DNA of 64,000 nt from Fomes fomentarius. Lineage: Eukaryota; Basidiomycota; Agaricomycetes; Polyporales; Polyporaceae. The notes beneath the pieces are model-generated. The model searched no databases and had not been told where the DNA came from. It saw only the letters and a program-made list of their open reading frames with translations. The DNA lies in the NCBI GenBank assembly GCA_022606135.1, contig JABYQN010000005.1, positions 1,054,001 through 1,118,000 of the forward strand, read 5' to 3'. Below are positions 34,812 through 64,000 of this stretch, piece by piece. A program made the translations under genes and the position numbers. The first letter of the stretch is position 1. Each line of letters opens with the position of its first letter.

Positions 34812-35265
34812 TGTTGGACCTCATGGGTCTTGTGCCCTAGCCAAGTCCATGGTTTGTTTTCATTCAGCCTTCCACACATTCCCTAATTCCTTCACTGCAC
34901 CATTATCTTCACCGATTTTTCCCTCCTTCCCTATCCGACCTGTGGCTGTGCAAATACTCACACAGGGTGGCAACGGGCGCCCCGCGCCTCGGTTAAGAGC
35001 GCTAGCCCGTCCATTGACTCCTGCGCCCTCCATGAATTTTTCTTTGAGCGCTTCTGTATGTTTTGTTGATTCCCATGTTTGGAAGTACTGTATAGTTGTT
35101 TCCTACGCGCTCCTGCCCCGTAGACAATCGCTGTGTCGAGCTCTGGTGTCTCTCAGACTTCACAGAGCTCGACATAGGTGGGTAGTATTATTTCTACAAT
35201 ATATTAGACTTCACAGAGCTCGACATAGGCCATTGTGATTGCTCTGAGGCACACTGCAGTCAACA
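34812..35265 (+). repeat. 5' LTR of copia copy A
   Basis: 454 bp, TGTTGG...CAACA. Contains a 51-bp direct duplication of GACTTCACAGAGCTCGACAT with a TTTCTACAATATATTA spacer. Identical in its diagnostic variants to the LTR at 51853, not to the 3' LTR. It also serves as 3' LTR to the truncated fragment 34679-34811. Confidence 0.95.
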
Positions 35266-35279
35266 GGTTATGAGCCCTG
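35266..35279 (+). other. Primer-binding site matching the initiator-tRNA anticodon arm
   Basis: GGTTATGAGCCCTG lies immediately after the LTR. Its complement, CAGGGCTCATAACC, equals the anticodon stem-loop of eukaryotic initiator tRNA-Met (as I recall the yeast sequence), rather than the tRNA 3' end. Internal 'half-tRNA' priming of this kind is known for Ty5 and Drosophila copia. Confidence 0.75.
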
Positions 35280-35488
35280 TGCTCTGACTGCCTCCAGACA
35301 TCCATCTCCGCCAGTCCATTGCTCTCAAGACCTCATCCTGGTCCCCAGTCTTCCCTGCTTGCTCTGCTTGACTTGCTTTCATCTCTCTGGGTGCTCCCCC
35401 ATCAATTCCATCGCTCCTCGTGGGTTTCTCACCCAATCCCTTCGCAATTTTGCCCACTCGTCGCACGCCGCGCACTTCCCCTATCACC

Positions 35489-36690
35489 ATGGCTCCATCC
35501 ACGCCCTTCTTCCCAAAGCTCAACAATCGCAACTACCAGCAATGGCGACTCGACATGGAGGCAAGGCTGCGCACTCTTGGTGCTCTTTGCATTGTCGAGG
35601 GCACTGAGACCAGGCCCGTCTTCACGCAGCCATGGGACTCAGGTGAGCACCGTGAAATTCGCGATTTCGACAACAAGGTGGACATGGCAGCTGGGGAGTT
35701 ATGGGGTTGTGTGGAGAGGGAGCAGCACACGCATCTGGAGTCCATTCGCAGCGATCCCAGTGCAATGTGGACGAAGTTGGAGGCCATACACATGCAGAAA
35801 CGTCCCGGTATGCGTTTTAACACCTATAATGCGCTGCTCAGCCTCCAAAAGGCCGAAGACGAGTCCCTATCCACTCTCTCCACCCGTGCTTTGCAGCTCA
35901 AGTCCGAGATGCGTGCCCTGCGTCCTGCGGGCTTCGATCTCGACCAGCTAGACGACGAGCTTGTCCTCATGATGCTCATCGGTGCACTGCCAGCTGAGTT
36001 CAACTCGCTGCACCAGATGCTGCTCCTCGACGACTCCTTGACCTTGGAGAAGCTGCAGGACGCGTTCATTGCGCTCGAGAACCAGCCTGGGGTGTCCTCG
36101 TCGACGCCTGCGCTCTCCCATGCTGCGTCCACCCTTGTCTGCGCGTTCTGTGGTCGCACCGGCCACTCCGAGGACCAGTGCTTCTCCAAGCGCGATGCGA
36201 GCACTCAGGCCAAGGAGAAAGCGGCTCAGCGATCGCAGTTCCGCTCCCAGAAGCCCAAGCGCAAGGAGAACGCTGCTGAGGCGTCCAAGGACACGCAGGA
36301 CACTCCCCCGGAGTCCGCTGGGTCAGCTGCTGTGAGTGCTGGTTGCGCTTCTGCCCTTCTCTCTGTCTCCGACCGCTCTGCTTGGCTCGCTACTCCGGCT
36401 GCGACTAACTGGAACACCGACACAGGTGCTTCTGCACACATGACCCCTCACCATCACTGGTTCCGCTCCTACTCGCCGCATGTCATCCCCATCCGCCTCG
36501 CCAACTCGCACATTGTCTACTCGGCCGGGCTAGGGTCTGTGGTGTTCCCACCGGCGGAGAGGGACGGAGTTGTACCACCTGCTGTTGTACTACACGATGT
36601 CTTGCATGTTCCTGCGCTCGCCAGCAATCTACTGTCCGTTTTCCATCTCACGCGCGAGAAGGGCTATGTTGTCGAGATCCAGCGTTCAAG
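35489..36690 (+). pseudogene. Copia gag-protease, truncated by deletion
   Basis: ATG at 35489 lies in CACCATGG context; the frame is open further upstream. The first 230 residues are a copia-type capsid domain (YQQWRLDMEARL near the start). A zinc knuckle C-X2-C-X4-H-X4-C (CAFCGRTGHSEDQC) lies near residue 225 and the aspartic protease site DTGAS near residue 310. The frame is native until VVEIQ at about 36680; then the sequence jumps into the integrase core in another frame. Beyond that point the open frame to 37681 is meaningless. Normally one polyprotein is made and cleaved by the protease. Confidence 0.9.
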
Positions 36691-39654
36691 GTGTTCAAAG
36701 CATATGCTGAGAACTGCCTCGGCCTGCGAATCAAGGCCACGCGCGACGACAAGGGCGGCGAGTACATTGGCCAGGAGTACGCCGACTTCTGCGCTGAGCA
36801 CGGCATCCATCGCCAGCACACAGAGCCAGACGAGCCGCACCAGAACGGTGTTGCGGAGCGAGCAAATCGCACCATTGCTGAGGGCGCAACCGCTCTCCTC
36901 TCTCAGGCCAAGCTGCCTCCGTCGTTCTGGGGTCACGCCGTCTCCACCTTTGTCCACACTCGCAACCGCATGCCTACCTCTGTGCTGGGCGGCGGCATCC
37001 CTTACACTGCCTGGAAACGCGACGGACGCAAACCAGATGTGTCCTACTTCCGCGTTTTCGGCTGCCTGGCTTATGTGCTTGTGCGCAAGAAGGACCGCAA
37101 AGCGCTGCAGCCTCACACGCGCAAATGCATCTTTGTTGGCTATCCTGAGGGCACCAAAGCCTGGCGGTTCTGGGATCCAGCTGCGAAGAAGTTCCTCATC
37201 TCCTCGCATGCTGTGTTCGACGAGCGCTGCTTCCCTGGTAACTCGCCCTCTATCAATGTCTTTGGGCTGCCTCTGGACGAAGTGGACATTCCCAGCGACG
37301 GAGAGCATGCGGATGATGCGCCCGACGACACTGAGGATGTGCCAGAGCTGCACGATCAGGGGGGAGACGATCCAGATGATCCTGCACCTCCTGCACCTCC
37401 TGCACCACAAAACACTCCGCCCGCACCTCCTGCACTGCAAAATGCTCCGCCTGCACCTCCAGAGCCACGCGCACCATCCCCAGATGCACCACCATGCAGT
37501 CCGAGTCCTCCAGCACCTCCTGCACCTCCTGCGCTGCGCGCCGCACCTCCACCTCGCCCAGCATCTCGCTCGGGCGTGCTGTCTGCCCACCATGAAGCGG
37601 ACGGTCATGGCGGGTTCAGGCCATATCCTGCGCTCGCACGCAAGCTCCCAGCGCGCTCTACTCGCTACACAGGCTCACTGAACAACCAGCAGCTCGAGCG
37701 AGAGAACCGTGTTCCGCAGCGCCTCCGCATCCACACTCCGTCACCTGCTCCCACTCCAGAGCCATCTGAGCGCGACGACACTCCACAGTGCAACTCGCCT
37801 TCACCAGACCCACTCATTGACGCACCAGTCGACCCAATCCCAGTCCAATTCCGCGCATACCGCTCTCCTTCGCCTCCGCCGTCTCCAACATCCTCGGACA
37901 ATGAGCTTGACCTCCTCGGACACAATCACGAGGACGGACTGGAGTGCACTGTTGAAGCGATGCTTGCGGGCATTGAGCATGTCTACACCGGTGAGCGCGA
38001 CGACTTCCTGTCGTACGACGATGCACTGGAGGTCGCATTCGAGTCTGTGGTCGAGCATGCGTTCAAGGCAGCACAGGAGCAGCACGGTGAGCCGCGCTCT
38101 ATCTCTGATGCAATGAGGCTTCCGCCGGACGAGTGCGACAAGTGGCTCAAGGCCGCACAGGACGAGATCCAGTCCCTTGTCGGGAACGGCACCTTTGAGC
38201 TTGTGCAGCTTCTGCCCGGTCGCAAAGCTATTGGCTCGCACTGGGTGTTCCGCGTCAAGCGCAATGCGGACGGCTCCATTGAGCGGTACAAGGGCCATCT
38301 TGTCGCAAAGGGCTTCTCCCAGCGCCCTGGCTTCGACTACAACGAGACCTTTGCGCCCACACCCAAGTGGGCCTCCATCTGTGCTATCCTCGCTCTTGCT
38401 GCACTCGAAGACCTCGAACTCGAGTCTGTGGACATATCCTCCGCCTATCTCAACGGCGAGCTCAAGGAGGAGGTCTACATGCAGCAGCCCGAGGGCTTTG
38501 AGGAGAAGACTCCGCAGTGGGTGTGGCGCCTCCGCAAGGCTCTCTATGGTCTCAAGCAGGCTGGCCGCTGCTGGCACGAGAAGCTGCACGAGGTCCTGCT
38601 CAAGCTCGGATTTTCGCGCCTGGTCTGCGAGCACAGTGTCTGGGTCTATCTGCACGACGGAGTGCGTCTTATCATCCCTGTCTTTGTCGACGACATCACC
38701 ATTGCTGGCAAGTCCAAAGCGGCCATCCAGCGCGTCAAGGATGACCTCTGCGCACACTTCAAATTGCGAGACCTCGGTCCTACATCCTGGCTCCTGGGTG
38801 TCAAGATTGAGTGCAACCGCTCGACGCGTTCCCTGTCCATTTCACAGCGCCAGTATGCCCTCGACATCCTCGACCGCTATGGCTTTTCAGACTGTGACCC
38901 GGTGGGCACTCCCATGGACCCAGGCCTCCGTCTCAGTGCGGAGATGGCTCCCTCGTCGCCAGCTAATGCGCGCAACATGCAGGACATCCCCTACAACCAG
39001 GCTGTTGGCTCTCTTTTCTATCTTGCTGTGGCGACGCGCCCAGACATCTCTCGCACTGTGGGCAACCTTGTGCGTTTCTCCCAGAATCCTGGGATGATGC
39101 ACTGGAAGGCGGTCAAGCATCTCTTCCGCTACATCAAGGGCACTCTTGACTACAAGCTCACCTACTCCCCTTCGCCCGACGCTGAGCTCTTCACCTCCTT
39201 TACCGATGCGGACCATGCTGGCTGTCCAGACACTGGCCGCTCCACCTCTGGCTATGTGATCAAGATGGGTACTGGAGCGATCTCCTGGTCGAGTCGTCTG
39301 CAGACAATTGTTGCGCTGTCCACCACGGAGGCGGAATTTGTTGCAGCAGTCTCCGCCGGCCAGGAGATGCTTTGGCTTCGCAACCTGCTCACGGAGTTTG
39401 GCTTTGATGTCTCCTCCGCATCCAGGCTCCGCATCGACAACCTCTCCGCCCTCTCTGTTGCGAAAAATCCTGAGCACCATGGGTGCATGAAGCACCTTGA
39501 TCTGCGCTTCTACTGGCTGCGGGACGAAGTAGCCAAAGGGCGGATTGAGATTGAGCACCTCCGCACTTCAGACATGCCGGCGGACATCCTCACCAAGTCG
39601 CTGCCCAAGCCCAAGGTGCTGGAGATGGTGAAGATGCTTGGGCTGGGGACTTGA
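36682..39654 (+). pseudogene. Copia pol remnant: integrase C-half, RT, RNase H
   Basis: A 987-codon open frame without its own start. It opens in the integrase core at RDDKGGEYIG (second catalytic Asp) and HQNGVAERANRTI (catalytic Glu); the first Asp and the zinc-binding N-domain are missing. A Pro/Ala-rich linker of tandem APPAPP units follows (37378-37560). RT has VDISSAYLNGEL near residue 580 and VFVDDITIAG near 663 (the YVDD-type site). RNase H shows [16 protein letters not shown] near 838 and LSTTEAEF near 878, ending MLGLGT. RT and RNase H look intact, so the element might still be mobilised in trans by complete relatives. Confidence 0.93.
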
Positions 39655-39660
39655 CTGGTC

Positions 39661-39669
39661 AGGGGGGAG
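39661..39669 (+). other. Polypurine tract of copia copy A
   Basis: AGGGGGGAG directly before the 3' LTR, the expected plus-strand primer. Confidence 0.85.
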
Positions 39670-40122
39670 TGTTGGACCTCATGGGTCTTGTGCCCTAGCC
39701 AAGTCCATGGTTTGTTTTCATTCAGCCTTCCACACATTCCCTAATTCCTTCACTGCACCATTATCTTCGCCGATTTTCCCTCCTTCCCTATTCGACCTGT
39801 GGCTGTGCAAATATTCACACAGGGTGGCAACGGGCGCCCCGCGCCTCGGTTAAGAGCGCTAGCCCGTCCATTGACTCCTGCGCCCTCCATGAATTTTTCT
39901 TTGAGCGCTTTTGTATGTTTTGTTGATTCCCATGTTTGGAAGTACTGTACAGTTGTTTCCCACGCGCTCCTGCGCCGTAGACAGTCGCTGTGTCGAGCTC
40001 TGGTGTCTCTCAGACTTCACAGAGCTCGACATAGGTGGGTAGTATTATTTCTACAATATATTAGACTTCACAGAGCTCGACATAGGCCATTGTGATTGCT
40101 CTGAGGCACACTGCAGTCAACA
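39670..40122 (+). repeat. 3' LTR of copia copy A
   Basis: 453 bp, same ends as the 5' LTR, separated by several substitutions and small length changes. Confidence 0.95.
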
Positions 40123-40995
40123 GCACTTTCTTGAGACTGTGAATGGCAGGGAATACCATGAACCTGCCATCCCGGGATGATTCCTGACTAGAGACTGGGT
40201 GGGGGAGCTTCTGGACATGCACATAGCCCAATTCAAGAAACATTCAATGCCAACAAACAGAAAGAAGGAGAAGAAGGACCAAGCCAGGGTCCTCAGGACT
40301 AGATGTGCTACATGTCAACAGATGGTACACAGACTATCTTGCCTCTTGATACATTTGCTGACTGTCATTCAATGCAGACGTTGAAGGTATGCAAGAAGGT
40401 GTTGGAGGACCATGGACTGGAGCATCATCTTATGCTGCTGGACAAGTTGGAACCATGTCACATGAGTGGTGACAAGCCCAAAGTTGACAGCACTGAAGAC
40501 AGCATGGTCACTTATCCATGAGTCTACATCATCCTCAAGCTCGCCTGGCAGAGCAGGGAGTTCATTGCTTTCCTTTGGCTCCTTGATGCTTGGCATGTTG
40601 CAGATCATATCCAAGCTGTTGGTGATGGTCTTTGTGGTGGAAACACACCACAGAAGAGGATTCCCAGTGATGAGCCAAAGCACATAAAAGGTGCAGCTCT
40701 GAAGGGTCTGTGGCAAAACTGCTACGACCCTGAATGGTTAGTCTCACTAAAGCCATGCATGCAGGAGAGCCTAGAAATCATCCCAAAGGACTATCCATTC
40801 TGGAACATCCTGGGGTGGGACAAGGTAGCACCTATGACGGGTGCAGAGACTGCAGAGATAGGCAAGGAAACACCAAACACCAGCAAGGAGACACCAAGGA
40901 TGGATGAGGAGACACTGACAGACGTGAAAGGCAAGGGTAAGGCAAGGGAGCTCATGGAGTCTGCATCCACTTCCTTGGTTGCTGATGTTGTGTGA
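40123..40995 (+). pseudogene. CpG-depleted relic of the gene at 44766-48214
   Basis: Stop-riddled, but translated pieces align with the C-terminal half of the minus-strand gene: FLETVNGREY versus FLNAVAGGEY, HHLMLLDKLEPCHMS versus RHVILLNRLKPVHVS, and KGLWQNCYDPEWL versus KGLWRNCYNEDWL. The intron between the RRRAATRQQT-like exon and the next is kept at the same place (GTACAC...TGCAG), so the relic arose by DNA duplication, not retroposition. It runs on the opposite strand. Almost every CpG is gone. The copia composite 34276-40122 appears to be inserted in it. Confidence 0.75.
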
Positions 40996-42184
40996 ATGGG
41001 TTGGTGGAAGATGTATGTCTATGGACAGATGTTGTCTGCATGCTGCTCAATGGATGCTTCTTGATCAAGAGCACAGGCTTCTGACACTAAGGTGAGCATT
41101 CTCCACAAAGTTTCTCTGGAAGTTGTTTGAGAAGTCTGGCAAAGGGTGAGTTATGCCAAACCAGTGTCTTTGGATTAGCTCACCCTTTGAGCTAGCTCTG
41201 CTGCAGACTGTCAGCTCACAACTGGCAGCCAGCAGGTGCAACAAGCTCTGAAGGGTAAGGGCAAAGAGCTCAGTACCCAACACAAGCTCCAAGGGCAAGT
41301 TAAGGTGAACTGTGGCATGTTCATATTAGCTTGCTTTTTTAGCTCCACTGTGGACCATGACCTCAGAGACAGTGGTTGGCAGTGGGCACAACATGAGGCC
41401 AACATTGTGATGAGCTAATAGCATAAGCTGTGCAAAGCTCTGTTTGACCTCCTTTTTGGGATCAGTTGTGGACTGTGGAGCTCAATTGTTTGAGTGGCAC
41501 TGACTGTTATGCAGATGGGAGAGGGAGCTAATGAGAGTTGGTCAGTAGTATGAGAGTGTGAGCTCACATTGTCATCTGGAAGATGAGTGGTGGCATAGCT
41601 TGAGGACACAGTATGTGTTCATACTGATGCACCATTTGTGCATGACAAGAGCTGCAATGTTGCACTCTAGAACCCACTTGGAGTCTGTCTGAGCTCATAT
41701 GGTGCACATGATGGGGTATGACAGTGCTATTGGAGAGCTCATATTTAGCCCCAAGTGTGCTCAGCCCAAGCTCTCTCCCTGCCTTATATCACGACCTATC
41801 TAACAACTGACCATATTGAGAAGTAGGTTATGGTTGTGATATGTAATATTATTATTTGCATTACCTGGATAGGAGATATCACATAGGCAAACATCTGATA
41901 TGTTGAATAGGTTGTCATACATGATATTTTCCTATGCATTACCCAATATAGGAGATATCACATACATGGCTGAAGGAATTCTACATCTGAGAAGGATCTG
42001 AAGGCCAAGCATTGGTCAGGTGCCCAATAAGACCCTAATCAATAATTTCTGGGTACCTAACTGTACAATAATAACTCCTAACCTCCACCACATGCACAAG
42101 TCTGGTATTGGGAGGACATTGGGTTGGGTGCTCACTATGATTAAATAAGCCCACCTAAAGTACCATGGAAATGTAAAAGTGCAC
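40996..42184. other. CpG-depleted non-coding repeat sequence
   Basis: Stop-rich in all frames and rich in GAGCTCA/AGCTC words. At about 41820-41960 a 55-60 bp segment ending GGAGATATCACATA occurs twice as a diverged direct repeat. No gene seen. Confidence 0.45.
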
Positions 42185-42686
42185 TGCTGTTATGCTCTTG
42201 CATGACTTAAATGTTCTGCTTTAGTTTGTAAACCTAATTCCTTATGACCTTGCTAGTCCAGTCTTCCTTATTCAAAGAAGACCTTGAAGTTTGTCTGAGT
42301 GATAACTTGCTAGAGTATAGCGTGTGTTATTCACAAAGAGACTAAAGCTTGAAGAGTTGCTCTGAAACATTCTCCCTTATATACATGTAGAGAAACTGTG
42401 GAACATTGATAGTAGACTGTGTATTAGTAAGACCATACTGATGCACAGTTAGTCTGACTAAATGTGCAGCCTGGATGACTGACTGCACAGTTAGGTGAAC
42501 TAAGCAAATGAATGTGCACAGTCTGGCTGACTCAGTCCATAGTTCTGGCTGACTACAACTGAACAAATGAATCCTTGTAGAACTAGACTCTTGCTCTGAG
42601 ATGTGTAAAAGTACAAAGGGAATATACTGCAATCTTAATCGTACAGTTTGATATCAGCCTTGCATACTTATTGAGTCATAACATCA
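42185..42686 (-). repeat. LTR of a second, older retroelement family
   Basis: Read on the minus strand: a purine tract AAAGGGGGAGC, then TGATGTTATG..., a TGTATATAAGGGAG TATA box in the middle, ending CATAACAGCA, which is nearly the inverse of the start. That is the layout of a 3' LTR with its polypurine tract. About 500 bp; no partner LTR is visible within the window other than its duplicate at 59189. Confidence 0.5.
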
Positions 42687-43120
42687 GCTCCCCCTTTCTG
42701 CAGGGACATCCTTGACCCTACGACTTATGCTTCAAGACAAGTCTGACATCAACGAAAGTGTCTCTGGAGTCAATGCCATGCAAGCCTCTGCAATCTGTTC
42801 CTCTGTTGTAACCCAGTCCCCCCATCCTGCCCAAAACTATTCCTCCTCTTCTGATACTCCAATTTCCCTCCAGTAAGGCATCATCATAGTGATGGGGATA
42901 AGGAGATTCTGACAAAGAATGAGGGGGTTTGTCTGCCTGGTCAGCATGTCGTCCATGATGAGTGTGGCCTGTCACACATACAACTGTGGTGCATCTGGCC
43001 ATGCTGCACTGTATTGTAGCTCCATATCCTCTGACCTGAGGAGAAAACCATGGTCAGGAACAAAGACAACCTCATTGTCCCAGGTGACAATAAGGAACCA
43101 TGTATCCCCTATTCCACGCA

Positions 43121-44053
43121 TCATCCGGCATCACCACCATCATCTGGTGCAGTGGTTGTAGATGGTGGTGGTGAAGGTGGTGGCAAGGGGTCTCCTGCCA
43201 TAGCAACAGCCATGGTCTGTTCGTCACTCTCTCCAACCAACAGTAGATCGAGCTGCTCCAAAGGGGGTAGAGAGGTTGTAGATGCAGACGGAGTGGTTCC
43301 TGGTGTGTTTGCTTCGTCATTGGCATAGTTCATAGAAAGGCTCCACAGATCCCACAAGACTGGAGACCAGGATGGTTGCTCAGGAGACTTCCATTGGTGG
43401 TCATGGAATCGTTTGGGGAAGTTGAGAACCCACCCATGGTTTTCGGTGACATGCTAATTTTGAAGTGGCATGAGGTCTGCGAGGGCTCAGGCCACCACTG
43501 GTGTTGAAAGGGTCCCGACGACCTGTTCAGCCACCTGAATAGTTGCCTGATAAGCCTTGTTGAGGGCCTGCATTGCTGCCGCCTTCTTCTTCCTGGAGGC
43601 TGCTAGATTGGGGATGTACCTTTTGAAGACCCTGTAAGAGGGTGCCGCATGAGCAAGAGCTCAATAGGCTCCAGTGGAAGCAGCAGCATGAGGAATATGA
43701 TGGAGGAGCACCTCAACATGTCCCACAAGTTCCTTGTGGAGGAGAACCCATCCAACATGGTCAGACAGGCTCCCATCAGGGTCGGTAGAAATGGTGTGGC
43801 GTGGGAGATGGGAATAATGGACAGGGCAACACTCCAAAATGAAACGAGGGGGTTTAGGAATGTTGGGAATGTTGGAGTAATTGCAATGAGAGTGAGTACA
43901 GGTTTGGAATGAAGGCATAGTTGAGAAAAACACGACGTGCAACGCCACTCCCCGCAGCTCCGACGTGCCATGTTGGGCAGTCTCCGCCCTCCCCAACGTG
44001 CTATGCTGGTCACTCTGTGGATTGCCAAAGAGCACACTGGGCTCCGCTGTCAC
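43121..44053 (-). pseudogene. Decayed ORF of unknown family
   Basis: One minus-strand frame spans about 310 codons with three in-frame stops. Two are TGA at positions where CGA would be expected after CpG deamination, the third TAG. Between the stops the sequence is protein-like (VFKRYIPNLAASRKKKAAAM, NHGWVLNFPKRFHDHQWKSP, LWDLWSLSMNYANDEANTP) and ends in a Pro/Ser-rich tail. I do not recognise the family. It may be the interior of the element whose LTR lies at 42185, or an unrelated gene relic. Confidence 0.45.
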
Positions 44054-44515
44054 TCCTCAATGCTCCCCACCGCTCCGACACACCAACTTGGGTGCTCTCT
44101 GCCCTCTCCGCCGGTTGCTCTGTGGATTGCCAATGAGCACCCACCTTCGCTCTTTGACACTCTCTGCCGTCTCATTCGGACTTCCCTGCCCTATCCGCGG
44201 CTACTGAGCAACCTGCTCCTTCCGATATGCCAGATGTGCCCACAGTTGGCACTCACCGCCTCTCCGCTGTCCTCTTTGACCCTCCGACGTGCCATGTTGG
44301 GCACTCCCTGCCCTCCCCCCCCTCCCCAACGTGCTATGCCGGTCGCTCCGCGGACGTCAAAGGGCTCCGGTGTAGCTCTTCGACACTCTCTGCCGCTCCG
44401 ACGTGCCATGTCGGGCACTCCCCGCCCTCCCCAATGTGCTATGCCGGTCGCTCTGTGAATCATAAAAGAGCATATCGGGCTTCGCCGTCGCTCTTTGAGG
44501 AGGGTGACGAAGACC
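43950..44515 (+). repeat. Degenerate minisatellite, about 110-120 bp unit
   Basis: Four or five imperfect units sharing CTCCGACGTGCCATG, GGGCACTCC, CCCCAACGTGCTATG and GGTCGCTCTGTG. The repeats create the apparently long + strand open frames here, which are not genes. Copy B at about 60952-61516 differs by one C in a C-run. Confidence 0.7.
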
Positions 44516-44765
44516 TCATACCCTCATCAATGTACATAAGAGCTCTTCGCCGCTCCCCATCTCTCGCTGCTGGAGCCTGTTAAAGTACTTAGTACTTCAC
44601 GTCGCTCCCGCATGCTCCGGTGCTATATGTTCTCAAGACAATGTTGATCCACTGAAGCACGATATGTACAATTCCTCTTACAGGCCTTGGATATGTACCT
44701 ACATCCTGCATTGCAATATATGGGTCAGTCTTACATATGTGCTATCACCAAGATCAAGCTGCCTC

Positions 44766-47700
44766 CTAGCGACGAGGCCGAGATGTAGTCGGCTGCTGGG
44801 GATGATGTGGAGATGATGTGGGCAGCGGCAGGAAAGGACGAGGATCCAAGCTGAACTCATAGTTGTCATCTATGATCTCCAGACCGTTGTATTCATGTAG
44901 TGGCAGGCCTCTGAGCCAGTCTTCATTGTAGCAGTTCCGCCAGAGACCCTTTGGTGCCTTCGAGTTCATGGTGGTTGGCACCCTGAGCTCAATCCGCTGA
45001 TGAGGTGCATTTCCTCCCGTGTCATCCTTCGCCCGCTTCGCAATCTGTATCTTGTCAATTCCCCTCATGAAGGTCTTGTACCCCCGACTCTGCCACAACG
45101 CTTCTTTGATGTGGTACGTGCGACATTCCACACCAACACTTGGCACTGCTGGCTTGTCTGGGCTGACATGAACAGGCTTCAGCCTGTTCAATAATATCAC
45201 ATGGCGTTGGAGGCCGAAGGCAGGGTCTGGACATGATTTCACGGCGTCCCTCCAATGTCTGCTTCAAATCAGATTCATTGAAAGATGACTGTGGGTCGGC
45301 GACACTCACCGTCTGCTGCCGCGTAGCCGCCCTCCTCCGCAACAACTCTTTCATCCACTTGTCCTTGTTGTCGGGCGTTGCCTTCTTCATGAGCTTACTG
45401 AATTTCACTTTCAAATAATCCACGTGTGCTGACACCGCGCTAGCCACAAACATCCGCTTGAGGTACCGAGTAGGAATGGGTGTAGTGGAGTATTCACCAC
45501 CAGCCACTGCATTCAGGAAATCGGTGATGAAGAAGTCCGCAGCTTCTTGATTCAGTCTGAACGTCTTCCAGCCCCGACTGAGGTCGATCTTGAACTCGGC
45601 GCAACTCGTAATGACCGGCCCCCGCGCATCAGAGTACTGCTTGGCTTCATCTTCTGTCAGTGCTGGGACTGGTACAGGTAGGTCCTTCATGGTGTGTATG
45701 TGGAGGAATTCATGGTCAAAATGCTTTCGAACACATGCCTATAGGAGATAAGGTGAGGGGTCTATGCTCATACATGAAACGACGTACAGCAAGTCGGGTA
45801 AGATGATTCTCCTCTTCCTGGTTGACCGCCGATTGAACTGGAATGGCCGTTGTGCGAGTTGCATTTCGCTCAGGCGGTGCAGTAGCTTCCTGTCCCTCCA
45901 TCTCATCATCTGAAGATATCGCAGCCAACTGGTCTGAGAAGTCTTCACCGTTTGCTTTGGCGATCCTAGCAGCTACTGAACGCACTCGAGGCTTGCAGCG
46001 CTGTGGAATAGTGTGCCAGCCGGGAGCCCAAGACGTCATGACTGACTCTATCTTGACGTTCAGAGTCTCGATTGTGTCCCTAGATGGATGCATCAGAATA
46101 CTGCGTAGTAACTCGCATTATTCATTGCTATGTGCTCACTCAATGTCATCGAACCTCTTGTCAACGCTTTCCTTCACTGATTGGACAGCGTTGAGAACTC
46201 TGACGTTGCTTGGGGTGTTATCTGAGTATGGCTGCGTCGGTGCCGCTTGAGCCCTGCAGTAGGACTGCATCAAATAGTGAGCACCGTTGCACTACCGCAT
46301 TACACTATTGCACTCACACTCTGTGAATGTGACTCCTCATCGGTTTCAAAGCAATACTGAGTGAAAACTGGGGCTTGTTGCTTCCCCTTGTCGGCTGCTG
46401 GTATACGACCACTGCCCGGGTCGTCCTAGTGCAGTATGCATCAACATCAGCATATAGAAAGCTATAAACCTCATACTGAGTCGGAGGCATCTTCTATTGT
46501 CATCCGGAATCAAGCCTTGGGACGAGTAGTGGACGCAGCGCTAGTATGCCCGTCCGGGACATCTGTATTTGTGGAGCCTATGTTCTTCTTGCGCGATGTG
46601 TCCGTGTTGCACACCAACTGGCTAGGTGGTGGGGCAGATCCGATGGTAAAGATAGGCTAGAACAGATAGTGTTAGCGGGAAAACGAGAGACGAGCGGCAA
46701 GTAGTTACAAATTCTTCGAGATCAACATCCATGATGTTTTGAGCTGCAAGGAAGGCAGCCAAAATGGCCTTGCGATCGGACACGGGAAGAGCCTGGAAGA
46801 TCTGTTTGCTCTCATCGTGTGGCTGTTCAAGACATCAGACTAGTTTGAGTAGGTGCAACGTCCGAGCACTCACCAGATTGTCCCCGATGGCCGTGAGGGG
46901 TGGTACGAATCCACTTGCCAGAAGCGATTCAACAGTGGAGCCTTCAGGGATGTGGTGTTTGTCTTCTCCTTGACCCACAGGAGTTGGTGCTGGGTGAAGC
47001 GGTGGTTCTGTGGCTGTACGGCCACTCGCGGTCGGAGTTGCCGCTGAGGGGGAGCTTTACGCTGTGATTTTGGTTTCGTCGTAGGGTTCCCAGGTGACTC
47101 AGCCACGAACATGAAGGATAGTTGCGAAGTAAGAGGTGCCGTATGAGATGGAGGCACTTGGGATGGAGGCGCCTGACTGGATGACTGTGAAGGAGGTACT
47201 GCGTGAGCTGGAGCAGGCCGCGGTACGTGACTCTGAGGAGAGGTGGTATTCTGAGGACTAACACCATCATGAGGCCCCAAGTGTGGATGCTGAGCTGCAA
47301 AAGTGTGGTGATACAAGGGTGCAGAGGGATGTTGCAGCGGCAGCGGAGGTTGTCGATATGCATGGCTCTGTTGACTGCAGTGTGCCTCAGAGCAATCACA
47401 ATGGCCTATGTCAAGCTCTGTGAAGTCTTATATATTGCAGAAATAATACTACCCACCTATGTCGAGCTCTGTGAAGTCTGAGAGACACCAGAGCTCAACA
47501 CAGCGACTGTCTACGGGGCAGGAGCGTGTGGGAAACAACTGTACAGTACTACCAAACATGGGAATCAACAAAACATACAAAAGCGCTCAAAGAAAAATTC
47601 ATGGAGGGCGCAGGAGTCAATGGACGGGCTAGCGCTCTTAACCGAGGCGCGGGGCGCCCGTTGCCACCCTGTGTGAATATTTGCACAGCCACAGGTCAAA

Positions 47701-50818: not shown

Positions 50819-51141
50819 TTGCAACCCACCCTGTGACAGGTGGAAGAAGCATGTATGTAAGGGTGCAAAATGTACGTCCAACAGGGAAAGGAGGGATGGA
50901 AGAGCGGGTGGTGGCAGATGACTGCAGAGGACGTCTGGCGTGTGCTCGGACTGAAGCTCATGGGTGAGTAGGTCGGAATGGCCGTAGCCGGAGAGGCTCG
51001 GCGACCGTCGTCGTGGACGTGAAGGCCTATCGTGATGATAGGTAGTGGGCACGTGGTGGCACTCAGGTGTGCAAGCCTTGAACACTGGTTCAGCAGGCGG
51101 GAAGTCAATTGTTCATTTGGAGCTAGTAAGTCCACTGACTA

Positions 51142-52306: not shown

Positions 52307-52320
52307 GGTTATGAGCCCTG
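52307..52320 (+). other. Primer-binding site of copy B
   Basis: Same GGTTATGAGCCCTG as in copy A, complementary to the initiator-tRNA anticodon arm. Confidence 0.75.
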
Positions 52321-52529
52321 TGCTCTGACTGCCTCCAGACATCCATCTCCGCCAGTCCATTGCTCTCAAGACCTCATCCTGGTCCCCAGTCTTCCCTGCT
52401 TGCTCTGCTTGACTTGCTTTCATCTCTCTGGGTGCTCCCCCATCAATTCCATCGCTCCTCGTGGGTTTCTCACCCAATCCCTTCGCAATTTTGCCCACTC
52501 GTCGCACGCCGCGCACTTCCCCTATCACC

Positions 52530-53731
52530 ATGGCTCCATCCACGCCCTTCTTCCCAAAGCTCAACAATCGCAACTACCAGCAATGGCGACTCGACATGGA
52601 GGCAAGGCTGCGCACTCTTGGTGCTCTTTGCATTGTCGAGGGCACTGAGACCAGGCCCGTCTTCACGCAGCCATGGGACTCAGGTGAGCACCGTGAAATT
52701 CGCGATTTCGACAACAAGGTGGACATGGCAGCTGGGGAGTTATGGGGTTGTGTGGAGAGGGAGCAGCACACGCATCTGGAGTCCATTCGCAGCGATCCCA
52801 GTGCAATGTGGACGAAGTTGGAGGCCATACACATGCAGAAACGTCCCGGTATGCGTTTTAACACCTATAATGCGCTGCTCAGCCTCCAAAAGGCCGAAGA
52901 CGAGTCCCTATCCACTCTCTCCACCCGTGCTTTGCAGCTCAAGTCCGAGATGCGTGCCCTGCGTCCTGCGGGCTTCGATCTCGACCAGCTAGACGACGAG
53001 CTTGTCCTCATGATGCTCATCGGTGCACTGCCAGCTGAGTTCAACTCGCTGCACCAGATGCTGCTCCTCGACGACTCCTTGACCTTGGAGAAGCTGCAGG
53101 ACGCGTTCATTGCGCTCGAGAACCAGCCTGGGGTGTCCTCGTCGACGCCTGCGCTCTCCCATGCTGCGTCCACCCTTGTCTGCGCGTTCTGTGGTCGCAC
53201 CGGCCACTCCGAGGACCAGTGCTTCTCCAAGCGCGATGCGAGCACTCAGGCCAAGGAGAAAGCGGCTCAGCGATCGCAGTTCCGCTCCCAGAAGCCCAAG
53301 CGCAAGGAGAACGCTGCTGAGGCGTCCAAGGACACGCAGGACACTCCCCCGGAGTCCGCTGGGTCAGCTGCTGTGAGTGCTGGTTGCGCTTCTGCCCTTC
53401 TCTCTGTCTCCGACCGCTCTGCTTGGCTCGCTACTCCGGCTGCGACTAACTGGAACACCGACACAGGTGCTTCTGCACACATGACCCCTCACCATCACTG
53501 GTTCCGCTCCTACTCGCCGCATGTCATCCCCATCCGCCTCGCCAACTCGCACATTGTCTACTCGGCCGGGCTAGGGTCTGTGGTGTTCCCACCGGCGGAG
53601 AGGGACGGAGTTGTACCACCTGCTGTTGTACTACACGATGTCTTGCATGTTCCTGCGCTCGCCAGCAATCTACTGTCCGTTTTCCATCTCACGCGCGAGA
53701 AGGGCTATGTTGTCGAGATCCAGCGTTCAAG
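52530..53731 (+). pseudogene. Copia gag-protease of copy B
   Basis: Matches the copy A gag-protease without visible difference, including the zinc knuckle, DTGAS site and the truncating deletion at about 53721. Confidence 0.9.
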
Positions 53732-56660
53732 GTGTTCAAAGCATATGCTGAGAACTGCCTCGGCCTGCGAATCAAGGCCACGCGCGACGACAAGGGCGGC
53801 GAGTACATTGGCCAGGAGTACGCCGACTTCTGCGCTGAGCACGGCATCCATCGCCAGCACACAGAGCCAGACGAGCCGCACCAGAACGGTGTTGCGGAGC
53901 GAGCAAATCGCACCATTGCTGAGGGCGCAACGCTCTCCTCTCTCAGGCCAAGCTGCCTCCGTCGTTCTGGGGTCACGCCGTCTCCACCTTTGTCCACACT
54001 CGCAACCGCATGCCTACCTCTGCTGGGCGGCGGCATCCCTTACACTGCCTGGAAACGCGACGGACGCAAACCAGATGTGTCCTACTTCCGCGTTTCGGCT
54101 GCCTGGCTTATGTGCTTGTGCGCAAGAAGGACCGCAAAGCGCTGCAGCCTCACACGCGCAAATGCATCTTTGTTGGCTATCCTGAGGGCACCAAAGCCTG
54201 GCGGTTCTGGGATCCAGCTGCGAAGAAGTTCCTCATCTCCTCGCATGCTGTGTTCGACGAGCGCTGCTTCCCTGGTAACTCGCCCTCTATCAATGTCTTT
54301 GGGCTGCCTCTGGACGAAGTGGACATTCCCAGCGACGGAGAGCATGCGGATGATGCGCCCGACGACACTGAGGATGTGCCAGAGCTGCACGATCAGGGGG
54401 GAGACGATCCAGATGATCCTGCACCTCCTGCACCTCCTGCACCACAAAACGCTCGCCCGCACCTCCTGCACTGCAAAATGCTCCGCCTGCACCTCCAGAG
54501 CCACGCGCACCATCCCCAGATGCACCACCAGCAGTCCGAGTCCTCCAGCACCTCCTGCACCTCCTGCGCCGCGCGCGCACCTCCACCTCGCCCAGCATCT
54601 CGCTCGGGCGTGCTGTCGCCCACCATGAAGCGGACGGTCATGGCGGCTTCAGGCCATATCCTGCGCTCGCACGCAAGCTCCCAGCGCGCTCTACTCGCTA
54701 CACAGGCTCACTGAACAACCAGCAGCTCGAGCGAGAGAACCGTGTTCCGCAGCGCCTCCGCATCCACACTCCGTCACCTGCTCCCACTCCAGAGCCATCT
54801 GAGCGCGACGACACTCCACAGTGCAACTCGCCTTCACCAGACCCACTCATTGACGCACCAGTCGACCCAATCCCAGTCCAATTCCGCGCATACCGCTCTC
54901 CTTCGCCTCCGCCGTCTCCAACATCCTCGGACGATGAGCTTGACCTCCTCGGACGCGATCACGAGGACGGACTGGAGTGCACTGTTGAAGCAATGCTTGC
55001 GGGCATTGAGCATGTCTACACTGGTGAGCGCGACGACTTCCTGTCATACGACGATGCACTGGAGGTCGCATTCGAGTCTGTGGTTGAGCATGCGTTCAAG
55101 GCAGCACAGGAGCAGCACGGTGAGCCGCGCTCTATCTCTGATGCAATGAGGCTTCGCCGGACGAGTGCGACAAGTGGCTCAAGGCCGCACAGGACGAGAT
55201 CCAGTCCCTTGTCGAGAACGGCACCTTTGAGCTTGTGCAGCTTCGCCCGGTCGCAAAGCTATTGGCTCGCACTGGGTGTTCCGCGTCAAGCGCAATGCGG
55301 ACGGCTCCATTGAGCGGTACAAGGGCCGTCTTGTCGCAAAGGGCTTCTCCCAGCGCCCTGGCTTCGACTACAACGAGACCTTTGCGCCCACACCCAAGTG
55401 GGCCTCCATCCGTGCTATCCTCGCTCTTGCTGCACTCGAAGACCTCGAACTCGAGTCTGTGGACATATCCTCCGCCTATCTCAACGGCGAGCTCAAGGAG
55501 GAGGTCTACATGCAGCAGCCCGAGGGCTTTGAGGAGAAGACTCCGCAGTGGGTGTGGCGCCTCCGCAAGGCTCTCTATGGCCTCAAGCAGGCTGGCCGCT
55601 GCTGGCACGAGAAGCTGCACGAGGTCCTGCTCAAGCTCGGATTTTCGCGCCTGGTCTGCGAGCACAGTGTCTGGGTCTATCTGCACGACGGAGTGCGTCT
55701 TATCATCCCTGTCTTTGTCGACGACATCACCATTGCTGGCAAGTCCAAAGCGGCCATCCAGCGCGTCAAGGACGACCTCTGCGCACACTTCAAATTGCGA
55801 GACCTCGGTCCTACATCCTGGCTCCTGGGTGTCAAGATTGAGTGCAACCGCTCGACGCGTTCCCTGTCCATTTCACAGCGCCAGTATGCCCTCGACATCC
55901 TCGACCGCTATGGCTTTGCAGACTGTGACCCGGTGGGCACTCCCATGGACCCAGGCCTCCGTCTCAGTGCGGAGATGGCTCCCTCGTCGCCAGCTGATGC
56001 GCGCAACATGCAGGACATCCCCTACAACCAGGCTGTTGGCTCTTTTCTATCTTGCTGTGGCGACGCGCCCAGACATCTCTCGCACTGTGGGCAACCTTGT
56101 GCGTTTCTCCCAGAATCCGGGATGATGCACTGGAAGGCGGTCAAGCATCTCTTCCGCTACATCAAGGGCACTCTTGACTACAAGCTCACCTACTCCCCTT
56201 CGCCCGACGCTGAGCTCTTCACCTCCTTACCGATGCGGACCATGCTGGCTGTCCTGACACTGGCCGCTCCACCTCTGGCTATGTGATCAAGATGGGTACT
56301 GGTGCGATCTCCTGGTCGAGTCGTCTGCAGACAATTGTTGCGCTGTCCACCACGGAGGCGGAATTTTGCAGCAGTCTCCGCCGGCCAGGAGATGCTTTGG
56401 CTTCGCAACCTGCTCACGGAGTTTGGCTTTGATGTCTCCTCCGCATCCAGCTCCGCATGACAACCTCTCGCCCTCTCTGTTGCGAAAAATCCTGAGCACC
56501 ATGGGCATAAAGCACCTTGATCTGCGCTTCTACTGGCTGCGGGACGAAGTAGCAAAGGGCGGATTGAGATTGAGCACCTCCGCACTTCAGACATGCCGGC
56601 GGACATCCTCACCAAGTCGCTGCCCAAGCCCAAGTGCTGGAGATGGTGAAGATGCTTGGG
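53723..56660 (+). pseudogene. Copia pol of copy B, multiply frameshifted
   Basis: Same domains as copy A but broken by single-base deletions: for example GCAACCGCT to GCAACGCT near 53930, CGTTTTCGG to CGTTTCGG near 54093, CTTCCGCC to CTTCGCC near 55150, CTCCTTTACC to CTCCTTACC near 56225, and several between 56360 and 56640. RT core motifs (VDISSAYLNGEL, VFVDDITIAG) survive in an open stretch 55276-56037. Confidence 0.9.
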
Positions 56661-56696
56661 CTGGGACTTGACTGGTCAGGGGGGAGTGTTGGACCT

Positions 56697-57130
56697 CATG
56701 GTCTTGTGCCCTAGCCAAGTCCATGGTTTGTTTTCATTCAGCTTCCACATTCCCTAATTCCTCACTGCACCATTATCTTGCCGATTTTCCCTCCTTCCCT
56801 ATTCGACCTGTGGCTGTGCAAATATTCACACAGGGTGCAACGGCGCCCCGCGCCTCGTTTAAGAGCGCTAGCCCGTCATTGACTCCTGCGCCCTCCATGA
56901 ATTTTTCTTTGAGCGCTTTTGTATGTTTTGTTGATTCCCATGTTTGGAAGTACTGTACAGTTGTTTCCCACGCGCTCCTGCGCCGTAGACAGTCGCTGTG
57001 TCGAGCTCTGGTGTCTCTCAGACTTCACAGAGCTCGACATAGGTGGGTAGTATTATTTCTACAATATATTAGACTTCACAGAGCTCGACATAGGCCATTG
57101 TGATTGCTCTGAGGCACACTGCAGTCAACA
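56697..57130 (+). repeat. 3' LTR of copia copy B
   Basis: 434 bp; about 20 bp shorter than the copy A 3' LTR through scattered one- or two-base deletions. Confidence 0.95.
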
Positions 57131-57990
57131 GCACTTTCTTGAGACTGTGAATGGCAGGGAATACCATGAACTGCCATCCCGGATGATTCCTGACTAGAGA
57201 CTGGTGGGGGAGCTTCTGGACATGCACATAGCCCAATTCAAGAAAACATTCAATGCCAACAAACAGAAAGAAGGAGAAGAAGGACCAAGCCAGGGTCCTC
57301 AGGACTAGATGTGCTACATGTCAACAGATTGTACACAGACTATCTTGCCTCTTGATACATTTGCTGACTGTCATTCAATGCAGACGTTGAAGGTATGCAA
57401 GAAGGTGTTGGAGGACCATGGACTGGAGCATCATCTTATGCTGCTGGACAAGTTGGAACCATGTCACATGAGTGGTGACAAGCCCAAAGTTGACAGCACT
57501 GAAGACAGCATGGTCACTTATCCATGAGTCTACATCATCCTCAAGCTCGCCTGGCAGAGCAGGGAGTTCATTGCTTTCCTTTGGCTCCTTGATGCTTGGC
57601 ATGTTGCAGATCATATCCAAGCTGTTGGTGATGGTCTTTGTGGTGGAAACACACCACAGAAGAGGATTCCCAGTGATGAGCCAAAGCACATAAAAGGTGC
57701 AGCTCTGAAGGGTCTGTGGCAAAACTGCTACGACCCTGAATGGTTAGTCTCACTAAAGCCATGCATGCAGGAGAGCCTAGAATCATCCCAAAGGACTATC
57801 CATTCTGGAACATCCTGGGTGGGACAAGGTAGCACCTATGACGGGTGCAGAGACTGCAGAGATAGGCAAGGAAACACCAAACACCAGCAAGGAGACACCA
57901 AGGATGGATGAGGAGACACTGACAGACGTGAAAGGCAAGGGTAAGGCAAGGGAGCTCATGGAGTCTGCATCCACTTCCTTGGTTGCTGAT
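57131..57990 (+). pseudogene. Copy B of the CpG-depleted gene relic
   Basis: Duplicate of 40123-40995. A few single-base differences up to about 57830, then identical. Confidence 0.75.
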
Positions 57991-59188
57991 GTTGTGTGAA
58001 TGGGTTGGTGGAAGATGTATGTCTATGGACAGATGTTGTCTGCATGCTGCTCAATGGATGCTTCTTGATCAAGAGCACAGGCTTCTGACACTAAGGTGAG
58101 CATTCTCCACAAAGTTTCTCTGGAAGTTGTTTGAGAAGTCTGGCAAAGGGTGAGTTATGCCAAACCAGTGTCTTTGGATTAGCTCACCCTTTGAGCTAGC
58201 TCTGCTGCAGACTGTCAGCTCACAACTGGCAGCCAGCAGGTGCAACAAGCTCTGAAGGGTAAGGGCAAAGAGCTCAGTACCCAACACAAGCTCCAAGGGC
58301 AAGTTAAGGTGAACTGTGGCATGTTCATATTAGCTTGCTTTTTTAGCTCCACTGTGGACCATGACCTCAGAGACAGTGGTTGGCAGTGGGCACAACATGA
58401 GGCCAACATTGTGATGAGCTAATAGCATAAGCTGTGCAAAGCTCTGTTTGACCTCCTTTTTGGGATCAGTTGTGGACTGTGGAGCTCAATTGTTTGAGTG
58501 GCACTGACTGTTATGCAGATGGGAGAGGGAGCTAATGAGAGTTGGTCAGTAGTATGAGAGTGTGAGCTCACATTGTCATCTGGAAGATGAGTGGTGGCAT
58601 AGCTTGAGGACACAGTATGTGTTCATACTGATGCACCATTTGTGCATGACAAGAGCTGCAATGTTGCACTCTAGAACCCACTTGGAGTCTGTCTGAGCTC
58701 ATATGGTGCACATGATGGGGTATGACAGTGCTATTGGAGAGCTCATATTTAGCCCCAAGTGTGCTCAGCCCAAGCTCTCTCCCTGCCTTATATCACGACC
58801 TATCTAACAACTGACCATATTGAGAAGTAGGTTATGGTTGTGATATGTAATATTATTATTTGCATTACCTGGATAGGAGATATCACATAGGCAAACATCT
58901 GATATGTTGAATAGGTTGTCATACATGATATTTTCCTATGCATTACCCAATATAGGAGATATCACATACATGGCTGAAGGAATTCTACATCTGAGAAGGA
59001 TCTGAAGGCCAAGCATTGGTCAGGTGCCCAATAAGACCCTAATCAATAATTTCTGGGTACCTAACTGTACAATAATAACTCCTAACCTCCACCACATGCA
59101 CAAGTCTGGTATTGGGAGGACATTGGGTTGGGTGCTCACTATGATTAAATAAGCCCACCTAAAGTACCATGGAAATGTAAAAGTGCAC

Positions 59189-59690
59189 TGCTGTTATGCT
59201 CTTGCATGACTTAAATGTTCTGCTTTAGTTTGTAAACCTAATTCCTTATGACCTTGCTAGTCCAGTCTTCCTTATTCAAAGAAGACCTTGAAGTTTGTCT
59301 GAGTGATAACTTGCTAGAGTATAGCGTGTGTTATTCACAAAGAGACTAAAGCTTGAAGAGTTGCTCTGAAACATTCTCCCTTATATACATGTAGAGAAAC
59401 TGTGGAACATTGATAGTAGACTGTGTATTAGTAAGACCATACTGATGCACAGTTAGTCTGACTAAATGTGCAGCCTGGATGACTGACTGCACAGTTAGGT
59501 GAACTAAGCAAATGAATGTGCACAGTCTGGCTGACTCAGTCCATAGTTCTGGCTGACTACAACTGAACAAATGAATCCTTGTAGAACTAGACTCTTGCTC
59601 TGAGATGTGTAAAAGTACAAAGGGAATATACTGCAATCTTAATCGTACAGTTTGATATCAGCCTTGCATACTTATTGAGTCATAACATCA
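59189..59690 (-). repeat. Copy B of the second-family LTR
   Basis: Duplicate of 42185-42686, with no difference noticed. Confidence 0.5.
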
Positions 59691-60122
59691 GCTCCCCCTT
59701 TCTGCAGGGACATCCTTGACCCTACGACTTATGCTTCAAGACAAGTCTGACATCAACGAAAGTGTCTCTGGAGTCAATGCCATGCAAGCCTCTGCAATCT
59801 GTTCCTCTGTTGTAACCCAGTCCCCCATCCTGCCCAAAACTATTCCTCCTCTTCTGATACTCCAATTTCCCTCCAGTAAGGCATCATCATAGTGATGGGG
59901 ATAAGGAGATTCTGACAAAGAATGAGGGGGTTTGTCTGCCTGGTCAGCATGTCGTCCATGATGAGTGTGGCCTGTCACACATACAACTGTGGTGCATCTG
60001 GCCATGCTGCACTGTATTGTAGCTCCATATCCTCTGACCTGAGGAGAAAACCATGGTCAGGAACAAAGACAACCTCATTGTCCCAGGTGACAATAAGGAA
60101 CCATGTATCCCTATTCCACGCA

Positions 60123-61055
60123 TCATCCGGCATCACCACCATCATCTGGTGCAGTGGTTGTAGATGGTGGTGGTGAAGGTGGTGGCAAGGGGTCTCCTGC
60201 CATAGCAACAGCCATGGTCTGTTCGTCACTCTCTCCAACCAACAGTAGATCGAGCTGCTCCAAAGGGGGTAGAGAGGTTGTAGATGCAGACGGAGTGGTT
60301 CCTGGTGTGTTTGCTTCGTCATTGGCATAGTTCATAGAAAGGCTCCACAGATCCCACAAGACTGGAGACCAGGATGGTTGCTCAGGAGACTTCCATTGGT
60401 GGTCATGGAATCGTTTGGGGAAGTTGAGAACCCACCCATGGTTTTCGGTGACATGCTAATTTTGAAGTGGCATGAGGTCTGCGAGGGCTCAGGCCACCAC
60501 TGGTGTTGAAAGGGTCCCGACGACCTGTTCAGCCACCTGAATAGTTGCCTGATAAGCCTTGTTGAGGGCCTGCATTGCTGCCGCCTTCTTCTTCCTGGAG
60601 GCTGCTAGATTGGGGATGTACCTTTTGAAGACCCTGTAAGAGGGTGCCGCATGAGCAAGAGCTCAATAGGCTCCAGTGGAAGCAGCAGCATGAGGAATAT
60701 GATGGAGGAGCACCTCAACATGTCCCACAAGTTCCTTGTGGAGGAGAACCCATCCAACATGGTCAGACAGGCTCCCATCAGGGTCGGTAGAAATGGTGTG
60801 GCGTGGGAGATGGGAATAATGGACAGGGCAACACTCCAAAATGAAACGAGGGGGTTTAGGAATGTTGGGAATGTTGGAGTAATTGCAATGAGAGTGAGTA
60901 CAGGTTTGGAATGAAGGCATAGTTGAGAAAAACACGACGTGCAACGCCACTCCCCGCAGCTCCGACGTGCCATGTTGGGCAGTCTCCGCCCTCCCCAACG
61001 TGCTATGCTGGTCACTCTGTGGATTGCCAAAGAGCACACTGGGCTCCGCTGTCAC
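60123..61055 (-). pseudogene. Copy B of the decayed unknown ORF
   Basis: Duplicate of 43121-44053 with the same in-frame stops. Confidence 0.45.
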
Positions 61056-61516
61056 TCCTCAATGCTCCCCACCGCTCCGACACACCAACTTGGGTGCTCT
61101 CTGCCCTCTCCGCCGGTTGCTCTGTGGATTGCCAATGAGCACCCACCTTCGCTCTTTGACACTCTCTGCCGTCTCATTCGGACTTCCCTGCCCTATCCGC
61201 GGCTACTGAGCAACCTGCTCCTTCCGATATGCCAGATGTGCCCACAGTTGGCACTCACCGCCTCTCCGCTGTCCTCTTTGACCCTCCGACGTGCCATGTT
61301 GGGCACTCCCTGCCCTCCCCCCCTCCCCAACGTGCTATGCCGGTCGCTCCGCGGACGTCAAAGGGCTCCGGTGTAGCTCTTCGACACTCTCTGCCGCTCC
61401 GACGTGCCATGTCGGGCACTCCCCGCCCTCCCCAATGTGCTATGCCGGTCGCTCTGTGAATCATAAAAGAGCATATCGGGCTTCGCCGTCGCTCTTTGAG
61501 GAGGGTGACGAAGACC
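60952..61516 (+). repeat. Copy B of the 110-120 bp minisatellite
   Basis: Duplicate of 43950-44515; the long C-run near 61310-61323 is one base shorter. Confidence 0.7.
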
Positions 61517-61766
61517 TCATACCCTCATCAATGTACATAAGAGCTCTTCGCCGCTCCCCATCTCTCGCTGCTGGAGCCTGTTAAAGTACTTAGTACTTCA
61601 CGTCGCTCCCGCATGCTCCGGTGCTATATGTTCTCAAGACAATGTTGATCCACTGAAGCACGATATGTACAATTCCTCTTACAGGCCTTGGATATGTACC
61701 TACATCCTGCATTGCAATATATGGGTCAGTCTTACATATGTGCTATCACCAAGATCAAGCTGCCTC

Positions 61767-64000
61767 CTAGCGACGAGGCCGAGATGTAGTCGGCTGCTGG
61801 GGATGATGTGGAGATGATGTGGGCAGCGGCAGGAAAGGACGAGGATCCAAGCTGAACTCATAGTTGTCATCTATGATCTCCAGACCGTTGTATTCATGTA
61901 GTGGCAGGCCTCTGAGCCAGTCTTCATTGTAGCAGTTCCGCCAGAGACCCTTTGGTGCCTTCGAGTTCATGGTGGTTGGCACCCTGAGCTCAATCCGCTG
62001 ATGAGGTGCATTTCCTCCCGTGTCATCCTTCGCCCGCTTCGCAATCTGTATCTTGTCAATTCCCCTCATGAAGGTCTTGTACCCCCGACTCTGCCACAAC
62101 GCTTCTTTGATGTGGTACGTGCGACATTCCACACCAACACTTGGCACTGCTGGCTTGTCTGGGCTGACATGAACAGGCTTCAGCCTGTTCAATAATATCA
62201 CATGGCGTTGGAGGCCGAAGGCAGGGTCTGGACATGATTTCACGGCGTCCCTCCAATGTCTGCTTCAAATCAGATTCATTGAAAGATGACTGTGGGTCGG
62301 CGACACTCACCGTCTGCTGCCGCGTAGCCGCCCTCCTCCGCAACAACTCTTTCATCCACTTGTCCTTGTTGTCGGGCGTTGCCTTCTTCATGAGCTTACT
62401 GAATTTCACTTTCAAATAATCCACGTGTGCTGACACCGCGCTAGCCACAAACATCCGCTTGAGGTACCGAGTAGGAATGGGTGTAGTGGAGTATTCACCA
62501 CCAGCCACTGCATTCAGGAAATCGGTGATGAAGAAGTCCGCAGCTTCTTGATTCAGTCTGAACGTCTTCCAGCCCCGACTGAGGTCGATCTTGAACTCGG
62601 CGCAACTCGTAATGACCGGCCCCCGCGCATCAGAGTACTGCTTGGCTTCATCTTCTGTCAGTGCTGGGACTGGTACAGGTAGGTCCTTCATGGTGTGTAT
62701 GTGGAGGAATTCATGGTCAAAATGCTTTCGAACACATGCCTATAGGAGATAAGGTGAGGGGTCTATGCTCATACATGAAACGACGTACAGCAAGTCGGGT
62801 AAGATGATTCTCCTCTTCCTGGTTGACCGCCGATTGAACTGGAATGGCCGTTGTGCGAGTTGCATTTCGCTCAGGCGGTGCAGTAGCTTCCTGTCCCTCC
62901 ATCTCATCATCTGAAGATATCGCAGCCAACTGGTCTGAGAAGTCTTCACCGTTTGCTTTGGCGATCCTAGCAGCTACTGAACGCACTCGAGGCTTGCAGC
63001 GCTGTGGAATAGTGTGCCAGCCGGGAGCCCAAGACGTCATGACTGACTCTATCTTGACGTTCAGAGTCTCGATTGTGTCCCTAGATGGATGCATCAGAAT
63101 ACTGCGTAGTAACTCGCATTATTCATTGCTATGTGCTCACTCAATGTCATCGAACCTCTTGTCAACGCTTTCCTTCACTGATTGGACAGCGTTGAGAACT
63201 CTGACGTTGCTTGGGGTGTTATCTGAGTATGGCTGCGTCGGTGCCGCTTGAGCCCTGCAGTAGGACTGCATCAAATAGTGAGCACCGTTGCACTACCGCA
63301 TTACACTATTGCACTCACACTCTGTGAATGTGACTCCTCATCGGTTTCAAAGCAATACTGAGTGAAAACTGGGGCTTGTTGCTTCCCCTTGTCGGCTGCT
63401 GGTATACGACCACTGCCCGGGTCGTCCTAGTGCAGTATGCATCAACATCAGCATATAGAAAGCTATAAACCTCATACTGAGTCGGAGGCATCTTCTATTG
63501 TCATCCGGAATCAAGCCTTGGGACGAGTAGTGGACGCAGCGCTAGTATGCCCGTCCGGGACATCTGTATTTGTGGAGCCTATGTTCTTCTTGCGCGATGT
63601 GTCCGTGTTGCACACCAACTGGCTAGGTGGTGGGGCAGATCCGATGGTAAAGATAGGCTAGAACAGATAGTGTTAGCGGGAAAACGAGAGACGAGCGGCA
63701 AGTAGTTACAAATTCTTCGAGATCAACATCCATGATGTTTTGAGCTGCAAGGAAGGCAGCCAAAATGGCCTTGCGATCGGACACGGGAAGAGCCTGGAAG
63801 ATCTGTTTGCTCTCATCGTGTGGCTGTTCAAGACATCAGACTAGTTTGAGTAGGTGCAACGTCCGAGCACTCACCAGATTGTCCCCGATGGCCGTGAGGG
63901 GTGGTACGAATCCACTTGCCAGAAGCGATTCAACAGTGGAGCCTTCAGGGATGTGGTGTTTGTCTTCTCCTTGACCCACAGGAGTTGGTGCTGGGTGAAG
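61767..64000 (-). pseudogene. Copy B of the multi-exon family gene (runs off the window)
   Basis: Duplicate of the 3' part of the gene at 44766-48214, with the same extra-G frame break. The 5' part, where copy A carries the solo LTR, lies beyond the window end, so whether this copy is also interrupted cannot be seen. Confidence 0.6.

Follow-up and report, generated by a model that had tools for sequence, protein, structure and literature searches.

Results

The window, the whole stretch of 64,000 bp analysed here (C5:1054001-1118000 of a 24-contig, 40.9-Mb assembly), carries in its right half a head-to-tail array whose unit consists of a defective copia element, E, and an 11.7-kb flank, U. 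Unit 1 (34812-51852, plus strand; 17,041 bp in the self-alignment) comprises the element E1 and U. By alignment, unit 2 fills the window in the same orientation from 51853 to 64000 and continues to 68854 in the host contig, and a third unit, located beyond the window at 68855-76137, breaks off inside U. Unit lengths of 17,041, 17,002 and 7,283 bp amount to 2.43 copies. The initial annotation had described a repeat that starts at 34812 and again, in the same orientation, at 51853, and BLASTN of the window against itself bore this out: the direct repeat 34811-46999 / 51852-64000 spans 12,190 columns at 99.475% identity, with 22 mismatches and 37 gap openings. Since base 34811/51852 is a G in both copies, the homology starts at the first base of the LTR (TGTTGG) within 1 bp, as had also been claimed. 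In the host assembly the repeat runs past the window end, with 34811-59098 aligning to 51852-76137 and 34811-42094 to 68854-76137. Both internal joints, at 51853 and 68855, read from the U end AACCG straight into the LTR start TGTTGG. The forecast that unit 2 would end near 68.9 kb with AACCG and then an LTR was therefore exact (AACCG at 68850-68854, LTR from 68855). Directly after all three elements, E1, E2 and E3, stands GCACT, and the companion forecast of AACCG plus the missing 5′ part of a gene past the next element failed: E3 leads into GCACT and again 2 kb of U.

E1 occupies 34812-40122 on the plus strand, with LTRs at 34812-35265 and 39670-40122 that differ by 8 substitutions; the copy situated at the internal joint, E2, aligns at 51853-57130 (plus strand). 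The LTR ends are TGTTG...CAACA, and these TG...CA termini, together with a 5-bp target duplication in the family, are those of copia elements. The segment 36409-39651 of E1 encodes rve, SH3_retrovirus and RVT_2 in this order, with the integrase ahead of RVT_2 as in copia-type pol; RVT_2 scores 220 bits, and rve stays below its cut-off (17 vs 32.6 bits). E1 lacks about 470 bp of pol at 36682: at internal position 1416, each of the 20 other copies that extend across the site has 390-473 extra bases, and E1, E2 and E3 have none. This common private deletion rules out three independent insertions and indicates that E1, E2 and E3 are one element that was copied. The 5′ LTRs are identical over 454 bp among the three elements (E1 vs E3, 0/454), whereas the two LTRs of E1 are 8 substitutions apart; the copying thus postdates the insertion. 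The flanks of E do not match each other (AACCG on the left, GCACT on the right), as recombinant element ends would give, while a solo LTR located within U is flanked by a clean target duplication.

This solo LTR (47369-47822, minus strand) has a perfect 5-bp duplication, GGCTC, on both sides, and a junction at this inverted LTR was ruled out on these grounds. Flank U itself covers the 11,730 bp between the element boundaries (40123-51852, plus strand), starting with GCACT and ending with AACCG. Searched as two halves, U gave no further complete copy in the assembly beyond those of the array. The initial annotation placed a gene immediately left of 51853 and had it cut at 51852. The open reading frame there, 51384-51755 on the minus strand, had no Pfam match and no relative at E<=0.001, which leaves a gene cut at this point unsupported. 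The nearest recognisable gene left of 51853 is a SUN-domain gene (PF07738, Sad1/UNC-like; 49111-49925, minus strand). It appears as two overlapping frames, is also contained in unit 2, and has relatives of 86% and 59% identity over about half of the query; the gene is probably disrupted. Within U, 42173-43928 is a dispersed repeat; its 17 relatives, about 1.8 kb long and 70-74% identical, lie on other contigs and at further places on C5. An Rfam search of the window gave 0 matches. For an exon of a transcription factor in the window, the best hit with an organism name comes from Trametes sanguinea, which makes a relationship to polypores likely.

The outer edges of the array differ from its internal joints. 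On the left, an inverted copia LTR that is about 50 bp short (34276-34678, minus strand, from the alignment) abuts with its outer terminus copia internal sequence at 34679. The following 133 bp (34679-34811, plus strand) are a copia 3′ internal end that matches 39537-39669 with 3 substitutions. Where copia pol had been reported, left of 34812, the copia sequence amounts to only these 133 bp of 3′ internal end, preceded by the inverted LTR. At the right edge, U of the third copy stops at 76137 (corresponding to 42094 in unit 1), and the sequence goes on in the middle of another LTR, near position 204 of that LTR; 2 bp (TG) at this joint are common to both sides. U therefore has two continuations after position 42094 in the assembly. 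An LTR-LTR duplication predicts the order last unit, LTR and original far flank, but what follows the truncated flank, U′, is an LTR fragment. A later deletion would explain the absent far flank. Further right of the array (positions 6470-8378 of the fetched stretch) lie long open reading frames, which we take to resemble a fungal DNA transposase.

Differences between the copies are concentrated in a single stretch. Outside 36890-40812 in unit 1 coordinates, the 13,118 bp compared between units 1 and 2 contain not a single substitution and only four indels, all in C runs; the two complete flanks, U1 and U2, show 0 substitutions over 11,040 bp. The corresponding 3.9 kb of unit 2 (53930-57816, plus strand), in contrast, has 24 substitutions and 39 one-base gap positions relative to unit 1, and 38 of the 39 are bases absent from unit 2. 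This concentration rules out a natural divergence of 0.5% between the units. E1 with U, compared with E3 with U′, shows no gap over 7,283 bp and only 9 substitutions, all within 37535-38052 (plus strand, from the alignment), a possible conversion tract or polishing effect. The E1 alleles in this tract are partly common to other copia copies.

For comparison we used 12 copia copies fetched from those in 67 match rows; gap counts are based on 11 of these, with C1_1157p left out as identical to C1_1151m. In the internal region, E2 has gaps at 7 of the 27 sites at which the E3 allele is absent from the 11 other copies, vs 17 of 2,953 other sites (Fisher p = 6.8e-10). At 15 ungapped sites E2 is unlike E1 and E3, which agree; the E2 allele is seen in other copies at 14 of them, and at 9 of those 14 the E1/E3 allele is private. 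Where E3 carries a minority allele (72 sites), E2 has the same allele at 48, the majority allele at 15 and a gap at 9. Natural mutation has no preference for gaps at private sites; a mixed consensus would explain the pattern: from the letters of the copies, the odd stretch of E2 reads as an unpolished consensus in which reads from E are mixed with reads from other copies. Plain low coverage would explain part of the stretch, as 17 of the 24 gaps in the E2 internal region lie at ordinary sites. Gaps in the 3′ LTR of E2 and in the left part of U show no apparent preference for private sites and look like plain error. A raw or mixed consensus of the kind expected from a supposed extra copy is thus present in 53930-57816; such a consensus need not stem from an artefact.

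Copies of the copia family fall into 14 clusters, which lie on 11 of the 24 contigs (a 56-bp match on C10 was left out). C1, C7 and C10 have two clusters each, and the remaining 13 contigs, which include C8 and C9, have none listed. Six inverted pairs within clusters (C1:1151-1161; C3:1257-1278 and 1291-1300; C6:482-497; C7:1852-1868; C11:83-94 kb) differ at only 0-6 sites, five of them over 2,955-2,987 bp and one over 1,125 bp, whereas identity between clusters is 91.9-96.4% (162 comparisons). The exception is a same-cluster pair on C1, at 3925 kb and 3909 kb, with only 96.6%. In the pairs on C7, C11 and C3 (1257/1278 kb), the short stretches analysed beyond the internal region likewise occur as inverted copies. 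Inspection by eye of the pairs on C1, C3 and C6 revealed no clean target duplications around them. At four clusters (window 34678/34679, C1:1156677, C3 at about 1296301 and C19 at about 14001), internal sequence of a copy in the opposite orientation directly adjoins the outer terminus of an inverted LTR, a structure expected when an element integrates into itself or into another one.

Discussion

Ectopic recombination between LTRs is a known route to tandem segmental duplication. The array resembles the product of such an event in its joints at LTR starts, its direct orientation and its near-identical units, but differs from it in the copia fragment and inverted LTR at the left edge and in the 2-bp joint inside U at the right edge. 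LTR-LTR recombination, one of the origins offered by the initial annotation, is thus consistent with all internal joints, while the far flank is missing and the left edge is unlike a plain flank. The alternative offered there, an assembly artefact, gains from the raw-looking consensus at 53930-57816, which favours an extra assembler pass for the middle unit; its two-haplotype version is less likely.

Based on these comparisons, we lean, with some reserve, towards a young LTR-LTR duplication of E and U that was followed by a terminal deletion, with a middle unit that may be an extra pass of the assembler. The starting locus would have carried the defective E upstream of the 11.7-kb U and a same-family LTR at the far end of U, flanked by AACCG. 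Recombination of this far LTR with the 5′ LTR of E on a misaligned partner would then have generated the tandem E-U. The last copy would later have been cut by a deletion reaching from inside U into another LTR, of which the 2-bp joint is what is seen today. The minimum that the assembly needs is E-U-E-U′ (1.43 copies), and the complete middle unit, E2 with U2, could represent one more round of the assembler over the direct repeat E+U′ of 7.3 kb. We regard the second E+U′ as likely to be genuine, since its 2-bp joint would not easily be invented by an overlap-based assembler. The middle unit contributes nothing new beyond the poor stretch and may therefore be an extra pass. Molecules that reach from the right part of U through E and over 2 kb into the left part of U would fit E2 alone and would have corrected its consensus, and the unpolished state of E2 suggests that such reads are few. 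Adjacent, nearly identical copies and a poor consensus at one of the joints would also fit a false duplication of the kind known from long-read assemblies (e.g. PMC8081667).

It is also possible, though we consider it doubtful, that the array is real as assembled, with 2.43 copies or more; the units would have recombined again to yield the third copy, and only the consensus of E2 would be poor. Tandem units with long identity expand readily, the joint of U-AACCG with the LTR is present twice in the assembly, and E2 both has the private pol deletion and keeps the E3 allele at two thirds of the minority sites. E2 could then be genuine but older, or have undergone conversion by other elements, and with reads shorter than about 9 kb a real middle copy would look the same as an artefact. 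Yet U1 and U2 are indistinguishable but for C-run indels, and the only stretch that could prove a separate copy is of uncorrected, mixed consensus quality. Quite improbable, in our opinion, is the absence of any tandem duplication, with two versions of the locus, from the nuclei of a dikaryon or from two loci, joined inside E2. The 0 substitutions between U1 and U2 would be unexpected for two fungal haplotypes, which usually differ, and a 5-kb control (18000-23000) occurs once in the assembly, so that the assembly is not generally duplicated as far as this one control can tell. These observations have to be set against the position of the poor stretch at the joint, the two continuations of U, as two alleles would give, and the clustered substitutions between E1 and E3. 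A young duplication with a possible extra pass over its middle unit is thus the account that we prefer.

GlCEN427, a copia LTR about 427 bp long, is reported only from predicted centromeres of Ganoderma leucocontextum (PMC10817607). By its description, GlCEN427 is similar to the family found here: both are copia families of a polypore-like fungus, whose LTRs measure a few hundred bp, occur singly or in pairs and gather at few places per chromosome. Our family differs in the length of its LTR (about 454 vs about 427 bp); moreover, 11 of 24 contigs carry copies, and three of these 11 have two clusters each. By this analogy, the 14 copia clusters may be centromeres. It is rather unlikely, but conceivable, that the region is a centromere, that centromeres here are built of copia pairs which stay near-identical within a chromosome but differ by 4-8% between chromosomes, and that the array is an expansion by LTR recombination caught in the assembly. 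The pairs behind this reading are the six inverted ones elsewhere and one direct pair at this locus. The rearrangement itself is of an ordinary kind and lies in a possible centromere.

Overall, our comparison of the copies reveals that one private deletion and a few private alleles can tell a true tandem duplication from an assembly pass. Until the reads have been checked, the copy number given for this locus in the present assembly should be treated with distrust. Should both the array and the inverted pairs prove real, they would provide a testable case of local copia homogenisation in candidate fungal centromeres.
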